Source: Tridacna crocea
Taxonomy: Eukaryota; Mollusca; Bivalvia; Cardiida; Cardiidae
Reading direction: 5' to 3'
DNA: 64,000 nt
Assembly: GCA_943736015.1 (NCBI GenBank)
Contig: OX031059.1
Span: 18,166,001-18,230,000 of the forward strand
Shown here: positions 4,919 to 42,700 of the stretch, piece by piece
How the letters are laid out: every line of letters begins with the position of its first letter
Position numbering within the stretch: position 1 is the stretch's first letter
Translations under genes and position numbers: made by a program
Notes under the pieces: generated by a model
Seen by the model: only the letters and a program-made list of their open reading frames with translations
Told to the model about the DNA's origin: nothing
Database searches by the model: none

Positions 4919-5143
4919 CCCATTACCACACAATCCCTACTTTTGACGCCCCTGAGAACGAAGCCTTAAGAAAACATTGTGGGAAAAGGAGAAAATGCTG
5001 GTTACCAGCATTTTCTCCTTTTCTCACAATGTTTTCTACTCTTTACAAAACAAATTTCAAATTTTCGGTCACTTTTATATCCTTGTCTGCAATTGCTTTC
5101 GATTTGGACAATCCTAAAATATTGTCGTTTGGTAACGAGTTAA
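4915..5143 (+). mobile_element. Family A MITE, second of a touching pair
   Basis: Full length, in opposite orientation to its neighbour; the two left arms face each other across one shared TTAA. Confidence 0.85.
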
Positions 5144-27700: not shown

Positions 27701-30700
27701 AAATTTGTTCTGGGAAGGGTAGAAAACACTGTGGGAAAAGAAGAAAATGCTGGTTACCAGCATTTTCTCCTTTTCCCAGAGTGTTTTCAAAAGGCTTCTT
27801 TCTCAGGGGCGTCAAAAGTAGGGATTGTGTGGTAATGGGTTAACCTACACTCAGTTTCTTTAAACCCGACTCTAAACCATGTGACAATATACGTGTGTAA
27901 CAATAGGTTAAGAATAATTCTAACATGACACATGCATTTGTCACTATAAACACAATGCTGCAAAAGCATGGTGAAATCATTCTATATAGTGTGATGTTAT
28001 TCTGTACAAAGTAAGTTAGTCACTGGAATATAATCTGTGTCCACGTTTTTAGTTTAAGTATGAACTTGTTTTCCTTTCATTAAGAGTTGGTTATGTTAGA
28101 ACCGAAAAAATCTTCTTTCTATCATGGTTTACAGTTCAATAAACCACATTGTGAGTTATGAGGCACAATAAATAAACCACTTGGGCTATTGCCCTCATGG
28201 ATTATTTATTGTGCCTCATAACTCACACAACTGTGGTTTCTTTGAGAAATCTTCTTTCTATTATGTTTATCATTCATTAAACAACAATTTTTTGTTGTTT
28301 GGTAAAAGGTTAAACAGCTTTTGTTGTTATTGCTGTTTGATGGCTTTTGAAGCTGAGAAATAACAAGCTGAGAGTAAATTTGCATTACTTTGACTTGACT
28401 AGAAAGTTCTTCTGATTGCCTCTCTAACACTGCTGCCTTGTTACTGAGTGGATCTATATCTACGTCTTGTTCTTCTTCATACAAGAACTGTTTCCGTGAG
28501 AATCCATAACTGTCATATTCTTGAATACTGTCAAAATGAAAGTAAAAAGTAAATACTATTTTGGGGCTCTTTACCACTCAAGTTACAATCCAGTGTTTCA
28601 CCCTTTACCAAACAATTCCCAGTTTTCATAACTCAGAGGAAGAAATCTTCTGAAAACATTGTGGGAAAAGGAGAATATGCTGGTTACCAGCATTTTCTTT
28701 TTTTCCACAAAGTTTTCTGCTCTTGTAGGGTCAAGTTTTGATTTTTGAGTCAAACATATTTTGTCGTCTGCAAATGATTTCAATCTGGATGAGTCTAAAA
28801 TGATTTTGTTTGGTAAAAAGTTAAAACATACAAATCTAACCAGCAACGGTGTTTAAGTTTTCTGTATGTATAATCCAACTGATCAGTTCTGATCTGAAGT
28901 GATTTTCAGTTAATATTTAAGTCTTATGCATGACTAAAGGAGAATATACTGCTAGACTTCTTCTGAGAATTTGCCCTTTTTACCACACCATCTTCAAGAT
29001 GGATCTGTGAAAGATGAAAAAGTTTAGTGAAGGGGACACCCAGTTAACCCATTAGCACACAATCCCTACTTTTGATGACCCTGGGAAAGAAGCCTTTACA
29101 AAACATTGCGGGAAAAGGAGAAAATGCTGCTAACCAGCATTTTCTCCTTTTCCTACAATGTTTTTCGAACTTTACAGAACAAATTTCAAATTTTCAGTTA
29201 CTTTTCTTTTGTTGTCTACAAAATTAATGCTTTCTATTTTAACAAGCCTAAAATATTGCTGTTTGGTAATGAGTTAAATATTTACTATAAAAGACAGTTT
29301 TTGACTGCCAAAAGTTTGCACAATAATACAAAAGTATTTGCAGGAAAAGAAATGACCTTCTTCCAGGTCTTGTCCTCATATATAGGAAAACAGCAATAAA
29401 TTGTGACCTGCAACTGATTCATTGTCCGAAATATCTAACAAGAGCTTCCCAAAGCGGATCATATTCATCCAAAGGGGACTTGTTGGTGAAATGGGTTAAA
29501 ATCTAGAATGCCTGCAGACAAACAAATTTTAAAGCTCACATGCACAACTAAACATCATGGAGATTCATCGCGGTAAGTTTGAACTTATTCCAATGAAAAT
29601 TGTAAGAGGAGTTGTGCACACAAGAAATTGCTAACAGATGGATGGACAGACAGACAGGAGGATGGATGGACAGTCAGACAGGAGTACAGAAACAACATAA
29701 TACGACCCTTTGAGCATGTAAAAAAAAAAACCTGAAAAATGCATTGAAATTCAAAGTGTTACTATACCTGCCAGTGAGACGTAGTTCAACATCATCCTCA
29801 TCCGCTTCCATGGCATCCTGTATCAGCTGACTGACAACTTCATGTCCATCTTCATCCCCTGTAAAAGTATAATGTCCATATCACAGGTGCCTGACATGTC
29901 TGGTATCATACCATCCCTCCATATAGATACAGAGGGATAGTATGATACCAGACATGTCAGGCACATGTGGTCCTTATCACACAACACTGATTTAAGTCAT
30001 TACCAAACAACAAAATTTTAAGTTTGTCCAAATTGAAAGCGTTTGCAGATGACAAAATAAAAGTGACTGAAAATTTGAAATTTGTTTTGTGAAGGGTAGA
30101 AAACATTGTGGGAAAGTGAGAAAATGCTGTTCACCAGCATTTTCTCCTTTTCCCACAATGTTTTCTAAATGCTTCTTTCTCACGGTTGCCAAAAGTAGGG
30201 ATTGTGTGGTAATAGGTTAACTCATTACCCAACGAGAAAATTTTAGACTGGTCCAAATTGAAAGCATTTGCAGACTACAAAATAAAGGTGACTAAAAAAT
30301 AGAAATTTGTTCTGGGAAGGGTAGAAAACACTGTGGGAAAAGGAGAAAATGCTGGTTACCAGCATTTTCTCCTTTTCCCATAGTGTTTTTAAAAGGCTTC
30401 TTTCTCAGGGGCGTCAAAAGTAGGGATTGTGTGGTAATAGGTTAAACAAGCATTTTTTCTGCCCTATCACAGACAGAAACTGTTACTTTACCAACATGTA
30501 ATTTATCATATGCAAATGCTATAAATTTGCCATTAGTAAACTTTCACAGTTTATTAGAGTTAGCTAACTATTAACAACCATAAAAGATTTAGATACCTCC
30601 TACTTGAAAGCATATGCAGCCAAAAATTAAAAAGTGTTTCAAATAATGGAATTACTTGGAGAAAGTCAGAGAGAAGAAAACAGCCTTTTCTCCTTTTCCC

Positions 30701-33700: not shown

Positions 33701-36700
33701 GGAGATGTTGGTTACCAGTATTTTCTCCTTTCCCAACAAAGTTTTCAAAAGTCTTGTTGTTCAATGTTTTCTTAAGCTTTCTTGGTCAGGGTTGTTAACT
33801 CAACAACAATCATTTAGGCATGTCCAAATCAAAAGCATTTGCAGATGACAAAATAAAAGTGAATGAAAATTTGAAATTTGTTTTGTGAAGGGTAGAAAAC
33901 ATTGTGGGAAAAGGAAAAAAAATTGCTGGTTACCAGCATTTTTCTCCTTTTCCCACAATATTTTCAAAAGGCTTCTTTCTCATAGTCATCAAAAGTAGGG
34001 ATTGTGTGGTAATAGTTTGACAGTGGGATTGTTTGGTAAAGGGTTAATCTGTTCATTAGATGAAAAAATGTGTGACTGATTACAAGCATTTTCTCCTTTT
34101 CTCACAATGTTTTCAACATGAACTTCACATAGCTGGGCATATAATATGCCTGAAGGGACTTGCCACGGAAATGGGTAAAAATCTAGAACACCTGCAGATA
34201 TCCAAGTTTTAGGAGTCACATGCAAAACTAAATAGAGAATAGTTGTTGTAAGTGTGGAGTTATTCCGAATGAAAACTGCCGGGGGAGTAGGGCACACAAG
34301 AAATTGCCAGACAGACAGATGGACGTACAGACTAATGACTTGGGCCATGACATAGTGCAACCTTACGAGCGTATAAAAACCTTCTCTTTTGTTGAAACAC
34401 AGAACTTAACCCATTACCACACAATTCCTAATTGTGACAACCCTGTGAAAGAACTTTTTGGAAAACATTGTGGGAAAAGGAGAAAATGCTGGTAACCAGC
34501 ATTTTCTCCTTTTCCCACAATGTTTTCTACCCTTCACAAAACAAATTTCAAATTTTCAGTCACTTTTATTTTGTCATCTGCAAATGCGTTTGATTTGGAC
34601 AAACCTCAAGTTTTGTTTGGTATTGAGTTATTGCACACAGGCCTCTAAATATCACTGAACATGTGACAACTGAGTCCCACTCACCCAACACAGGCCTAAC
34701 TCCTTACCAAATGACAAAAAGTAGACTAGTCCAAATTGAAATCATTTGTGGGCAACAAAATAAATGTGACTCAAAAATTGAAATTAACTTTGGGAAGGAT
34801 AGAAAACATAGTGGGAAAAGGAGAAAATGCTGGTTACCAGCATTTTCATTTTTTCCCACAATGTTTTCAAAAGCTCTCTTTCTCAGGGTCGTTAAAAGTC
34901 AGGATTGTATGGTAAAGTGTTAAAATAATTAAATCAGTGCAGAGGTATACATACTTTCATTCGCGAAACTTCCTTTTCATATGATGCTGATGAACCCAAG
35001 TCTAACAGAGGTTGCACACTTTCTGATTGGTCTATCCCAGGAAATGCTTGATGCTCTTTGTCAAATAATTGTGTTGACAAACTGATTATTGTTTCATCTT
35101 TGGCTTTTAGCATGTCCTCATACATTGCAAGCTGTTCCTTACTAGCACTGAATTCTTTTTCTACAGATCTTAAAGAAAATAATGTAAGATTTACAGACAT
35201 AGCCCAAAGACAAAGCAAGAGAAATTTATGCATAAAGTGGTGAATCCAGACAACTAACTTTTCACCACAAGTTATATAAATGCATCCCCAAATGATTTGC
35301 TACATCTTCTTTTGCTCGTACCTCCTGCAACCCTTTTTCAAGGTCAAGGTTTTTTTTCCCTCATTAACAATATTAACCCATTACCACACAATCCCTACTT
35401 TTGACGCCCCTGAGAAAGAAGCCTTTAGAAAACATTGTGGGAAAAAGAGAAAATGCTGGTAAACAGCATTTTCTCTTTTTTCCCACAATGTTTTCTACCC
35501 TTCACAAAACAAATTTCAAATTTTCAGTCACTTTTATTTTGTCGTCTGCAAATGCTTTCAATTTGGACAAGTCTAAGATGTTGTCATTTGGTAATGAGTT
35601 AAACGATATATGGCCATAAGACAAAAATGAACTTTGTCTCAATACTATGATCAATCCCGGGCGCGAGTTTTCAAAATGATACCCTGACTAAATATGGTTA
35701 TAAGACATGCAAATGTAACAAACTGCATCTGTTGAACATGATCGATAAATACAGTAATACAACTGATTCATTTTTCTTGCAAACAATGACTTTTAGCTCT
35801 TTGAAAAACCTGTAATAAGTGTAGTCTATTAAACTTACTGTAATTTTTCTGTGGTTACTGCATATTCTTGTTTAATAACAGCTAACTGGTTGTTCAAGTC
35901 AGTGACTAAAATCTCCTTTTCAATTAATAAATCTGTTTTACCCTGATCATCCAAGTCAGCAGTTTTTTCTCTGAAATATACATTTTAGTTGTCCAATCAG
36001 GTGGCAGGAAAAGAGGGAAATTGTCAAGGCCTGTAGTGTATTATGTCGCCCCAAGCTAATTGGCTCGAGGTGACATAGTATGCCACAGCCCTTTTCAAGA
36101 TCCCTTGTGGCCTGCTACCTGAACAGGCAACTAATATTATTATGCTGAAAAGAAATCTCTCAGGATCTGACTGAATCTTATACTCTGAATATTTACTGCT
36201 GTACACTGGCAACTTGGCAAACTCCAGAAAAGAGCAGTTTCCCTGTCAGGAGTCTCATAGACTTGACAACATTTCAAATAAAAAATAATCCATTCTTTCT
36301 ACTTTAATGGCAACCATCAAGGGAAACTAGTTGTAAAATGGTGTATTACCGATAAGTTGGTCTTGTGGGCGTTTCGTATCTAGATCTCCCATTTGGAGTT
36401 GGAATTGAAGTGTATAGTCACGCCTACTTGGCTCCCAACATCCCAACAGGAAAACTGTGTTTCAATGAAGCATGCCAGTGTACAGCAATTCTAATACATG
36501 TATATACTTAAACCATACTATCCAATGGGGTTGCAAGAAATTTCTGACCTAAATATTGCTTCTTGCAGAAAACCTTCCTTGAAGATATTATTAGGATAGG
36601 AGAAGGCTAATTTATCCTTTGCAACAATGTTTTTGTGCATTAATGAAGTACGGTAAGTCCTAGCCCATGTAGAGCCATCAAAATGAAATGAACATTCTTA

Positions 36701-39700
36701 GTCAGTACTAAAGATGCAAATTATTTATGATATTTGTAAGCTGGTACACGAATTAGAGCCATACACTTGAAAAAAGGGGGTTTAATGCATCCCTTTGATG
36801 CACGATTCTATCCAGTCATCATATCATTATGATCCATAAAATCTACTTTGATGGACAATGATTAAATCATGAGCTCGAGTGTTCCTTTGACATGCAAAAA
36901 ATGAGCAAAAGCATAAAGTTTTGAAAAAGGACTACAATCTGGAATAATTACCGGTATGCCATAAATAGAGGATCTTACATGAGATGGTTTTTGAGATAAA
37001 ATTCTATTAAATGAGTCTACAAAAAAATCTTATTAACTCATTACTACACGATCCCTACTTCTGACGGCTCTGAGAAAGAAGCCTTTAGAAAACATTGTGG
37101 GAAAAGGAGAAAATGCTGGTAACCAGCATTTTCTCCTTTTCCAACAATGTTTTCTATCCTTCCCAAATCAAATTTCAAATTTTCAGTTACTTTTATTTTG
37201 TCGTCTGCAAATTTTTTTGATTTGGACCAATCTAAAGTTCTGTTGTTCGGTAATGAGTTAAGTGAACCTTTGTGGACGAGTTTAATAGATTTTTTACCTC
37301 AAAAGCCAACGAGTGACAGATTCTTTTCATCACAAAACTGTATAACAAGAATCATAGTTCACAATGTGTTAAAAAAGAGGCATAGATGTATAATGTGTAA
37401 TGAAATTTACATGAAGCCTACAGTTGCCTCTTTGACAGGTATATTACGATAAAAAAATAGTTCAGAAGAAACTTGTATATACTGAATTTGTTTGAATGTA
37501 AAATCGATTAACTCAACAACTTTATCATGATTAAGAATGTTGACCATTAATTTCCTCCAGGAAACTTAGGTCAGCAATGTTTTTAGAGATAAAGGGTTTG
37601 ATTACAAAGTGTTGACCACATACAGCACTACTTTCATCTCATACATGTGTTAGACAAAAAAATCTGTAATTGTTGTATTACATTGAAAACTAAGGAAGTT
37701 AAGTGATAAATAGAGGATCTTACATGAGTGTTTATTTATTATCATTTTTATCAATCCAGTTGATTAAAATTGTATGACTCGAGCCTTGGCGAGCGTCAAA
37801 TACATTTTAGTCAACAAGTTTGACAAAAAAGATATTGCAAAAACAGGAATGTGAAATTCTTATCATCAATAAAACAAATGACAGACAAAAAATATCCTGC
37901 CTCATCACCTTTTGCCTATAATTATACAGTTCACATTTCCATGTTTACAACTGTAGTTCAGTTTAAAGGTGGGTATTTAGATTTTTCACTCACTGAAATT
38001 TATATGAAAAAACAATATAAATCATCAATAATCAATAATCGTAAAATTACAACTTTTTTGATGGCTGCGTAGCCTCTTGAGCTGTTTATAGTCGCATAAG
38101 AAATCAAAAAGGCATTGTGGGAACGTCCAGTGACTGGCATGTGACTAATGACGCTTAATTTCCATAACATAAAAAACAGGTAATTATTTTCTATAATGTC
38201 TTCTTTGAACGCTATATTTGAAGCTTTGTCTGTGTATTTCCAGTATGTAAATGAGCAAGTTGCTCATGGAAAAATAGAATGTGTTTCCTTTGGTGTTGAC
38301 CTGGGCTGTAGTAAATCTCTAATTTCTCTTGATGTCGGATGGTTTTCGATTAATGGGGGTTTTATAAATGAAGATGGAGAGGCTTTGGGAGTATAAGGAT
38401 AATTCTCATTATCTCCCGCTAGATGGCATTCTATAAATACTCATCTATCTAATATGGGCATCCTGGTTACAGAACCGAACCACTTTCCTACGCGACAACC
38501 GTTGAATTTAAAACTAAAATAAAGATTTACTCAATAAAGCGCTACATCGTGCAATTCACTCAGCTGTGATCAGCAGTTTAGAGAAATCTAGAGCTAAAGC
38601 AGGTCTCTTTTCTCCTCAAACATATTGATAAAAGCTTTCTTCAACATTGCTACTTTATAGAGCATATTATTACAGTCAGCCCGCTTTCGGGGCTATTGAT
38701 GCGTAATAAGACAGACGAATCTTCGACGAATATGAAATGCACAGACAACGAAGGACAATTTTTTTGCATTTTTATAACTTTTTTGTCCCAAAATCTGAAA
38801 GGCCACCTTTCAAATGTGTACATACACAAGTTGATAGCTCCATGACACTCAGACCAAAAGTAGAATAAGAACGGTCTCTGGAGGTGGTTAGTGTGACAAA
38901 TGCAAGAGTTTTGTTGTTTTTAAACAGCTTTCCTGTATTTCCTGCTGCTTTTGCTGCATTTCTTGCTTTTTATTAAACATGAAAATCAAAGACTGTTCAA
39001 CTGCACTCTTCTTAGGAACAAAGATGTCACGAAAATTAATATAAGTTCAATTTCCTGTGGATGGCTTCTCAAGCTTCACATGCTCATGACTAGAAATTGA
39101 TCAGAACTGGGACCAAAGAAAAACGATATTACACTAGTGTATTATCAAAAATAAATCAGGGTTTAACCCTTAACAAGACAACAAAATTTTAGCCCCGTTC
39201 CAAACTGAAAGCATTTTCAGACGAAACATTGTAGGAAAAGGAGAAAATGCTGGTTACCAGCATTTTCTCCTTTTCTCATAATTTTTTCATAAGCCTTCTT
39301 TCCAAAGATCGTCAAAAGTCGTCATTATGTGGTAAAGGGTAAATACATTGTCTGGGAAGATTTTTATGTGATAAATACAATATCCCATTAACTTGTTACC
39401 AAACGACAAAATTTTAGGTTTGTCCTAAACGAAAGCATTTGCAGATGACAAACTAAAAGTTCCTGAAAATTCGAAATTTGTTTTGTGAAGGGTGGAAAAC
39501 ATTGTGGAAAAGGAGAAAATGCTGGTAACCAGCATTTTCTCCTTTTTCCACAATGTTTTCTAAAGGCTTCTTTCTCAGGGTGGTCAAAAGTAGGGATTGT
39601 GTGGTAATAGGTTAATATACCTGTACCTTGCAGATAATTCTCCATTGATATACTTGTACCTTGCAGATAATTCTCCATTAATATACTTGTATCTTGCAGA

Positions 39701-42700
39701 TAATTCTCCATTAATATACTTGTACCTTGCAGATAATTCTCCATTAATATACGTGTACCTTAGAGATAATTCCTTTTGCAGGCCGTCTAACTGTTTATGT
39801 AGGATTTCAACAATCTCCCTGTTGGCTGTCAGCTCTACCTCCAGATCTTCATAATCTTTCAATGATCCAACATCATTCTGTACAGACTGTGACCCTTGGA
39901 CATTCTGTGATAGAGGCTGAATAAGTTAAACAAAAAGTTTACCACATTTACTTCACTAATCATCATATCTCAAAACATAAGATTCTATATTTGTAGAATT
40001 TTCAGATGTGTAATGAAATGTGCCTAAAATGATGGATGCACCAGAAAGTTGTGTGTTAAAGAGTAAAAAGCAATACACTAAGACAGAAGAAAATGCTATT
40101 TCTCATTTTCCACACGATTTTCAAAAACTAACTGGTCTGAATGTAGTTTAACTCTTTACCAAACAACAAAATTTTAGACTGGTCCAAACTGAAAGCATTT
40201 GCAGACGACTAAAAAAGCCCAACTCAAAAATGGATGTTTCTTTCAAGCAGGACAGAAAACATTGTGGGAAACAGAGAAAATGTTGGTTGCCAGTACATGT
40301 ATTTCTTTCTTTTCTGACAATGTTATTTTCAAAAAAGCTTCTTTTCCAGGAGTTTCAAAAGTCGGCATTGTGTGGTAAAGGGTTAAATAAACAACTTAAT
40401 AGAGAAAGCCTTTCCCATGTTTTCTATCCTGCTGGAAACAAATTTCAATTTTTAAATTAACGTTTATTTTGTCATCTGCAAACGCTTTCATATTTGGGCC
40501 AGTCTAAAATTTTGTTGTTTGGTAACTCTAGTTAAATGAGAAAACAAGACGCACCTTTATGAACTGTATGGAAAAGATTAGTGAGAAATTTCTTCAAACT
40601 TTTACAGTACACAATCTTTTCATCATAAATGAACCATGCTCTCTGAAAAAGGCATTTAATGCAGCTGCAAAAAGTACTGACAAGCTTAACCCTTTCCCAA
40701 ATGGCAAATTTTGGACTGGACCAAATTGAAAGCATTTTGCAGATGATTAATTAACCATAGCTAAAAAGATGATTTTTCTATATCATAGGGTAGAAAACAT
40801 TATGGGAAAAGGAGAAAATGCTGGTTACCAGCATTTTCTCCTTTTCCCACAATGTTTTCAAAAGACTTCTATTCCTGACCCGTAAAAACCAGAGATTTTC
40901 TGGGAAAGGGTAAACACTTTCCCACACAATGACGACTTTAGACACCCCTTGGAAAGAATTAAGCCTTTTGAAAACATTGTAGCAAAAGGAGAAAATTACC
41001 AGCATTTTCTCCTTTTCCCACAATGTTTTCTACCCTGTCAATAAACAATTGCACCATTTCAGCCACAATTAAATTGTCGTCTGCAAATGCTTTCAATTTG
41101 GACAGGGCTAAAATTTTGCCGTCTGGTAAAGGGTTAATTATCTTGGTCAAAATTAATTTCTTTTTGCAAATTTTCTGCATTCCTAACACCAATTGTAACT
41201 CGGGTTTCAGGTGAGTGTTACCATGTTAGACAAAATAGATTTTATTGATCCATAATTATGTGATGAATTGCTTGGTAGAATGCATTATGTGATGAATTGT
41301 TTGGTAGAATGCATTATATGATGACTTGCTTGGTAGAATGCATCATGAAGATGTATAAACCATAGGAATTTGACATTCTATAACCAAAATAAATGATGAA
41401 ATAGGAAATTAAAATCTCCGCTAAATAGGGGAGATTTTTTTTTCATATTTTATCATTTATTTTGATTATAGAATGTCAAATTCCTGAACATAAACCCATT
41501 GATTTCCACACAATCCCCACTTTTAGTGACCCTGAGAAAGAAGCCTTTTGAAAACATTATAGGAAAAGGAAAGAATGCTGGTAACCATGCTTTCTACCTT
41601 TCCAAAGCAAAATTTCAAATATCTGACTTTGATAGGATATATCATATCCCACAATGTTTTTCACAGGCTTCTTTCTCAGGGTCATCAAAAGTAGGGATTG
41701 TGTGGTAAATTTTATACTTATATTCTGTTTACCAATTAAACGACAAAATTTTACGCTGGACCAAATTGAAAGCATTTGCAGATGTCAAAATAGAAGTGAC
41801 TGAAAGTCTGAAAATTACCAGCTTTTCTCCTTTTCCCACAATGTTTTCAAAAGGCCTCTTTCTCGGAGTCACTAAAAGTCGGGATTGTGTGGTAAACGGG
41901 TAAATGAATCCCTTTCTGCCTATAAATGTTACTAAATACAATGACAGCTATCTTTACCTTTTTGGACCTGAAATTGGACATTTTTGAGAATAGCTTACTC
42001 CTCATCATGGCTGGTGTTTGAGTATTTATAAGAATTATGATGACAGAAATGACCTTATCAAAGGCATTAACTAATATTTACGTTCAAATCGAACAGTCTC
42101 TGTAACACAGAAAACCATGATTAGTCATCATAAATCCGGTCTGTCCTATCAGCATGAATGGGAAACACTTAAATCCATCCAGAATGCTGCATGAGTTTTC
42201 ATTTCAATTCATAAAAATCCACTTGACCTTACTGCACAATAATAATATCTGAAAAAGCCTTTTCAATGTGATAATATTTTTGAAAAACACAAAGTTGGCA
42301 CATAAATAGATGGCTCTGCCAGTTACAGTTGTGAGTTTGATCTCATGTGATAGAACAAATCTATGACATCAATCCCTTTTTTAGTATTCATGCATGTTAT
42401 AATTATTGTTTCTCCCCCTTCAACCAACCCGTCTTGACAAGGAACAGAACTATACAGTTGTCCTATAAAATCTGAATTTTTTCAACAATTTCACTGTACA
42501 TGCATCAATGCAATAGTTTAGTTTAACCCTTTACCAAACAAAAGCAGAAAGCATTTGCAGATGACAAATTAGAAGTTATTCAAACCCTGAAATTTTTACT
42601 TCAAAGTGTACAAAACATTGTGGGACAAGGAGAAAATGCTGGTAACCAGCATTTTCTCCTTTTCCCACAATGTTTTCAAAAGGCTTTTTCCTCAGGATCG

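Follow-up and report, generated by a model that had tools for sequence, protein, structure and literature searches.

The exon-intron junction at the end of exon 6 in a TBC1D2-type gene of Tridacna crocea is covered by a minisatellite with a 33-bp unit and 4.9 copies, and five candidate GT donors lying in this array can all be joined in phase to one and the same downstream acceptor. The analysis was made on a 64,000-nucleotide stretch of genomic DNA (the window), in whose coordinates all positions are given. It is, in our estimate, an even proposition that these donors were born by duplication from an original in unit 1, and that splicing would mainly use the two at 39759 and 39621. The features of the locus are collected in Table 1.

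Table 1. Features of the exon 6 junction and its surroundings (window coordinates; units numbered from the exon towards the intron).
Feature	Position	Strand	Details
Exon 6, constant part	39760-39916	-	acceptor TTATTCAG/CCTCTA at 39916; supported by open frame, join and match to a provisional human TBC1D2 sequence
Exon 7 (next exon)	35839-35970, 132 nt	-	acceptor TATATTTCAG/AGAAAA; donor ACA/GTAAGT
Minisatellite	39612-39772	-	units from 39772, 39739, 39706, 39673 and 39640
Array coding frame	39612-39772	-	ELS(L/A)RY(T/K/R)YING
Donor AAG/GTACAC	39757-39759, exon end 39759	-	in unit 1; likely the original junction; 4.0 bits
Donor AAG/GTACAA	39724-39726, exon end 39726	-	+11 residues; 3.7 bits
Lost donor AAG/ATACAA	39691-39693	-	unit 3, reads AAGATAC
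Donor AAG/GTACAA	39658-39660, exon end 39660	-	+33 residues; 3.7 bits
Donor AAG/GTACAG	39625-39627, exon end 39627	-	+44 residues; 4.1 bits
Donor CAG/GTATAT	39619-39621, exon end 39621	-	+46 residues; 5.8 bits; U1 duplex -7.7 kcal/mol
MITE, 220 bp	39392-39611	-	inside unit 5; TTAA at 39612-39615 and 39388-39391

The array was delimited by TRF on the minus strand, with 93% matches between copies and a score of 280, and a further repeat search returned spacings of 33, 33 and 33; over a total of about 161 bp, the tandem repetition is far above chance level. Unit 1, GAATTATCTCTAAG, is made of the final 14 bases of the exon and 19 bases of the intron, so that the exon bases 39759-39772 double as the start of the array. 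Units 1, 3, 4 and 5 can each be told apart by private differences. The initial annotation had already described a repeated 33-bp unit with its donor, donors with AG/GT at 39759, 39726, 39660 and 39627, and a copy at 39693 in which the donor was lost; TRF and a scan for GT[AG], which lists AAG/GTAC at all four positions, bear this out, while the limits it gave (39616-39773) mark the right region but lie a few bases off those of TRF. A search of the assembly (1.05 Gb, 31 contigs) with the DNA of the exon plus array returned the self-match only, with no paralogue or second haplotype, and a search with the 171-residue protein matched its own three exons only.

The assignment of the gene to the TBC1D2 type, as initially annotated, fits what was found along the strand. 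Pfam RabGAP-TBC matched two of ten scanned exon stretches, with E-values of 4.7e-19 and 2.8e-9, and a match to half of a PH domain scored below the Pfam cut-off. We further compared the window with a provisional human TBC1D2 sequence; eight of the 21 listed stretches matched at E ≤0.013 (best 2.3e-17), all of them on the minus strand and in the right order. In this human sequence the motifs WEFHN, YLAGL and WEAGE start at residues 142, 510 and 542, and the same positions are printed for them in PMC3898768. Given the agreement of these three landmarks, the coiled-coil part of the human sequence probably has the correct length. The distance from ILHK to ICKLS or IISLS is 87 residues in the provisional human TBC1D2, 86 in the short form ending at 39759 and 132 in the form with 46 added residues, and the old junction was therefore probably the one in unit 1. 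When aligned to the same human sequence, the short form scores 94 with one gap and the +46 form 62; 1,000 shuffles put through the same alignment averaged 40 and peaked at 74.

Scripted joins were made from each candidate donor to 35970-35839 and then to 35168-34955, and all five remained open with no stop, adding 0, 11, 33, 44 and 46 residues for exon ends 39759, 39726, 39660, 39627 and 39621, respectively. The in-frame, stop-free steps of +0, +11, +33 and +44 proposed at the outset are thus reproduced. The open frame across the array is unremarkable and gives no evidence of selection, since two of its six frames are stop-free, a period is divisible by 3 with odds of 1 in 3, and a run of 11 random codons is free of stops with a probability of about 0.59 by arithmetic. 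A GT at 39839 (4.0 bits), upstream of these donors, was considered as well; it is out of phase with 39759 and therefore misfits the next exon.

The donor at 39621 was missing from the initial list. It has the top score of the five and lies closest to the body of the intron, and it owes its CAG/GTATAT sequence to the codon AGG in unit 5, where units 2-4 have AAG. Its duplex with the 5′ end of U1 is also the most stable, the other four reaching -5.6 to -6.2 kcal/mol. Weaker sites, CAC/GTATAT or CAA/GTATAT, likewise missing from that list, stand at 39753, 39720, 39687 and 39654. The bit scores were calculated with an approximate human matrix, which may not suit this species. On this matrix the four AAG/GT donors are individually weak, with about one in ten GTs of the window equalling them: the two strands together hold 6,812 GTs, of which 10.5% equal or exceed 39759 in score and 3.3% equal or exceed 39621. 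None of the five candidates has G at +5. For comparison, 12 other predicted donors or alternative donors of the same gene, only some of them checked for frame, score 2.7-12.5 bits, nine of them at 5.5 or above.

How could such a series of donors come about and be used? The 14 last bases of the exon and the 19 first bases of the intron were duplicated in tandem to give the array, whereby each copy gained a potential donor, as the sequence shows. We propose that unit 1 is most likely the original junction and units 2-5 later copies, and that the TTAA-flanked MITE landed in unit 5. The spliceosome would now face up to five rival donors, each of them weak. Among equal donors, intron-proximal sites tend to be preferred. 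Splicing may mainly use the two end donors, namely 39759, with which the protein would have its ancestral length, and 39621, which has the best score and lies nearest to the intron body, with the middle donors playing a minor part; the outcome would be two proteins, one short and one longer by 46 repetitive residues that are compatible with helix. The ladder of alternative 5′ splice sites originally described here was called a clear case, which is too strong on DNA sequence alone. The multiplication of the donor sequence stands, but a ladder presupposes that several donors are used, those listed reach only 3.7-4.1 bits, and 39621 was overlooked. With the strongest donor left out and donor use putative, that interpretation appears plausible but incomplete.

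A rival reading, to which we give a considerable though smaller probability, is that nearly all splicing goes through a single donor. This would be 39759 if units 2-5 are inert intron, or 39621 if the whole array is exonic, and the remaining sites would be by-products of a neutral minisatellite. Arrays are indeed common enough to hit donors by chance. In 20 sampled 10-kb regions, searched for periods of 10-60, at least three copies and at least 80% match, we found five arrays, one each in five regions, covering 605 of 200,000 bases (0.3%). An animal genome has on the order of 10^5 donors. From this number and the array frequency in the sampled regions, a few hundred overlaps of an array with a donor would be expected genome-wide if there were no selection against them. 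By the same survey criteria the window holds two arrays, that at 39612-39772 among them. A second minisatellite, at 41255-41347 with a 29-bp unit and 3.2 copies, lies in the intron before the studied exon. The lack of statistical weight in the open frame also suits a single dominant donor, as does the fact that residue spacing points to 39759 and score to 39621. However, spacing and score thereby indicate opposite ends of the array, and tandem donors of similar strength seldom have one exclusive user.

Two further explanations have much less in their favor. A mini-intron of 99 or 132 nt could be excised, with one copy supplying the AG and another the GT, as in the model of Rogers; every intact copy reads AGGT and is preceded by TATTAAT, which resembles a branch site, and introns inside tandem repeats are reported in PMC4974935 and PMC3629103. 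None of the AGs in the array, however, passed a filter of nine pyrimidines in the preceding 15 bases, and we hold this route to be highly improbable. The number of units could also be wrong in the assembly, as tandem repeats mis-assemble easily, but the array is just about 161 bp long and four of its units are individually marked, which makes such an artefact the most improbable of the explanations considered.

If donors other than 39759 are used as we propose, the added residues may lengthen the coiled coil. For the exon as far as donor 39621, AlphaFold predicted from the single sequence one helix spanning residues 3-97 of 98; the kept model has a mean pLDDT of 90.7 and a pTM of 0.52, the means of the five models being 90.7, 88.8, 87.4, 86.4 and 55.8. 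Single-sequence AlphaFold models may favor helix, and the addition of the repeats as a continuous helix is compatible with the coiled-coil reading on the basis of one uncontrolled model. Of the initial proposal of coiled-coil isoforms, helix compatibility is retained to this extent, and the isoforms are putative. The idea that the YINGEL motif forms a β-hairpin or breaks the coil was dropped in view of the single modelled helix. By arithmetic, 11 residues make about three helix turns with a net rotation of 20 degrees and a length of about 1.65 nm. The hydrophobic periodicity of the array was strongest at 3.667 among the periods tried, a weak signal in that an 11-residue repeat can peak only at 11/k. 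One may go further and picture the array as a ruler set by splicing, in which donor choice lengthens the coiled coil of a Rab7-type GAP by helix steps of 11 residues, a last step to 46 residues comes through the donor born in unit 5, and the set of isoforms varies with the number of units between individuals; we attach rather little probability to this picture. In human Armus the coiled coil binds active Rac1, according to PMC3898768.

Closely spaced alternative donors are a known class. The present donors resemble it in being potential rival 5′ splice sites whose choice would change the protein length in frame, and differ from it in that their spacing is set by a 33-bp repeat, with only 39627 and 39621 close to each other (6 nt). 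In reporters with rival 5′ sites, the balance moves with the intervening sequence, as stated in PMC1877881. Variable internal tandem repeats with units of 30 bp on average, four copies and 160 bp are described for human segmental-duplication genes in PMC2812944, which states that they alter exons or, at exon-intron boundaries, yield alternative splicing through novel introns. The array studied here is like them in unit size (~30 bp), copy number (~4), length (~160 bp), position at an exon-intron boundary and potential to change splicing and produce amino-acid repeats, and so belongs to a kind of boundary repeat for which altered splicing has been published in human genes. Intron gain through tandem duplication is treated in PMC4974935 and PMC3629103, and the Rogers model likewise invokes short tandem copies (24 nt in fission yeast), each with a proto-splice site; for yeast this site is AGGC in PMC3629103 and is cited as AGGT in PMC4974935. 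Our case differs from both: the changes in the human repeats are backed by transcripts and mostly involve novel introns among recent paralogues, whereas here a single-copy gene would offer a choice of donors, and, unlike in the Rogers model, a pre-existing donor with its intron was duplicated. Among the papers listed from the open-licence literature, none has a title about a TBC1D2-type gene with such an array, which leaves absence unproven, and no title on donors within tandem repeats stands among those listed for duplicated or tandem donors. In this compact locus nature has set up an experiment on spliceosomal choice between near-identical donors 33 nt apart, and on the way a minisatellite can make intron coding. 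Its importance would grow if several donors were used in RNA and the number of units varied in populations.

The MITE that interrupts unit 5 bears on the former extent of the array. When the flanks are joined without it they read GTATATTAATGGGATATTG, in which the repeat runs on to TTAATGG. It therefore seems that the repeat extended to TTAATGG before the insertion and that five near-complete units existed by then. Three near full-length copies of the MITE occur in the window, this one included; in two of them each end has a TTAA no more than 3 nt away, and in the third neither end does. A genome search gave at least 42 matches, this locus included, among the best 40 of 1,493 candidates that were scored. 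The stretch holding the MITE hairpin folds far better than its shuffles (z -7.55). At 39600-39640, unit 5 and the MITE end form a hairpin of -5.8 kcal/mol, versus 0.0 for the joined empty site; when the MITE end was shuffled 5,000 times, this value was reached in 161 cases. Masking of the donors by the MITE was considered and is unsupported: mean unpaired probabilities, calculated at four window sizes, are 0.27-0.28 with the MITE versus 0.34-0.60 without it for 39627, but 0.56-0.57 versus 0.17-0.43 for 39621, so that the former is less open and the latter more open. Some quarter of the window is MITE-related sequence, with 16,050 bases spread over 72 merged places (for example 39392-39611 and 4919-5139), and in the sampled 10-kb regions it amounts to 20,747 bases in 122 places, present in 18 of the 20 regions. 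A direct tandem of two MITE-like units, each 225 bp long, occupies 29992-30445. On the plus strand, an open frame of 205 residues at 13877-14494 matches Pfam DDE_3 with an E-value of 8.7e-8 and is presumably part of a Tc1-like transposase.
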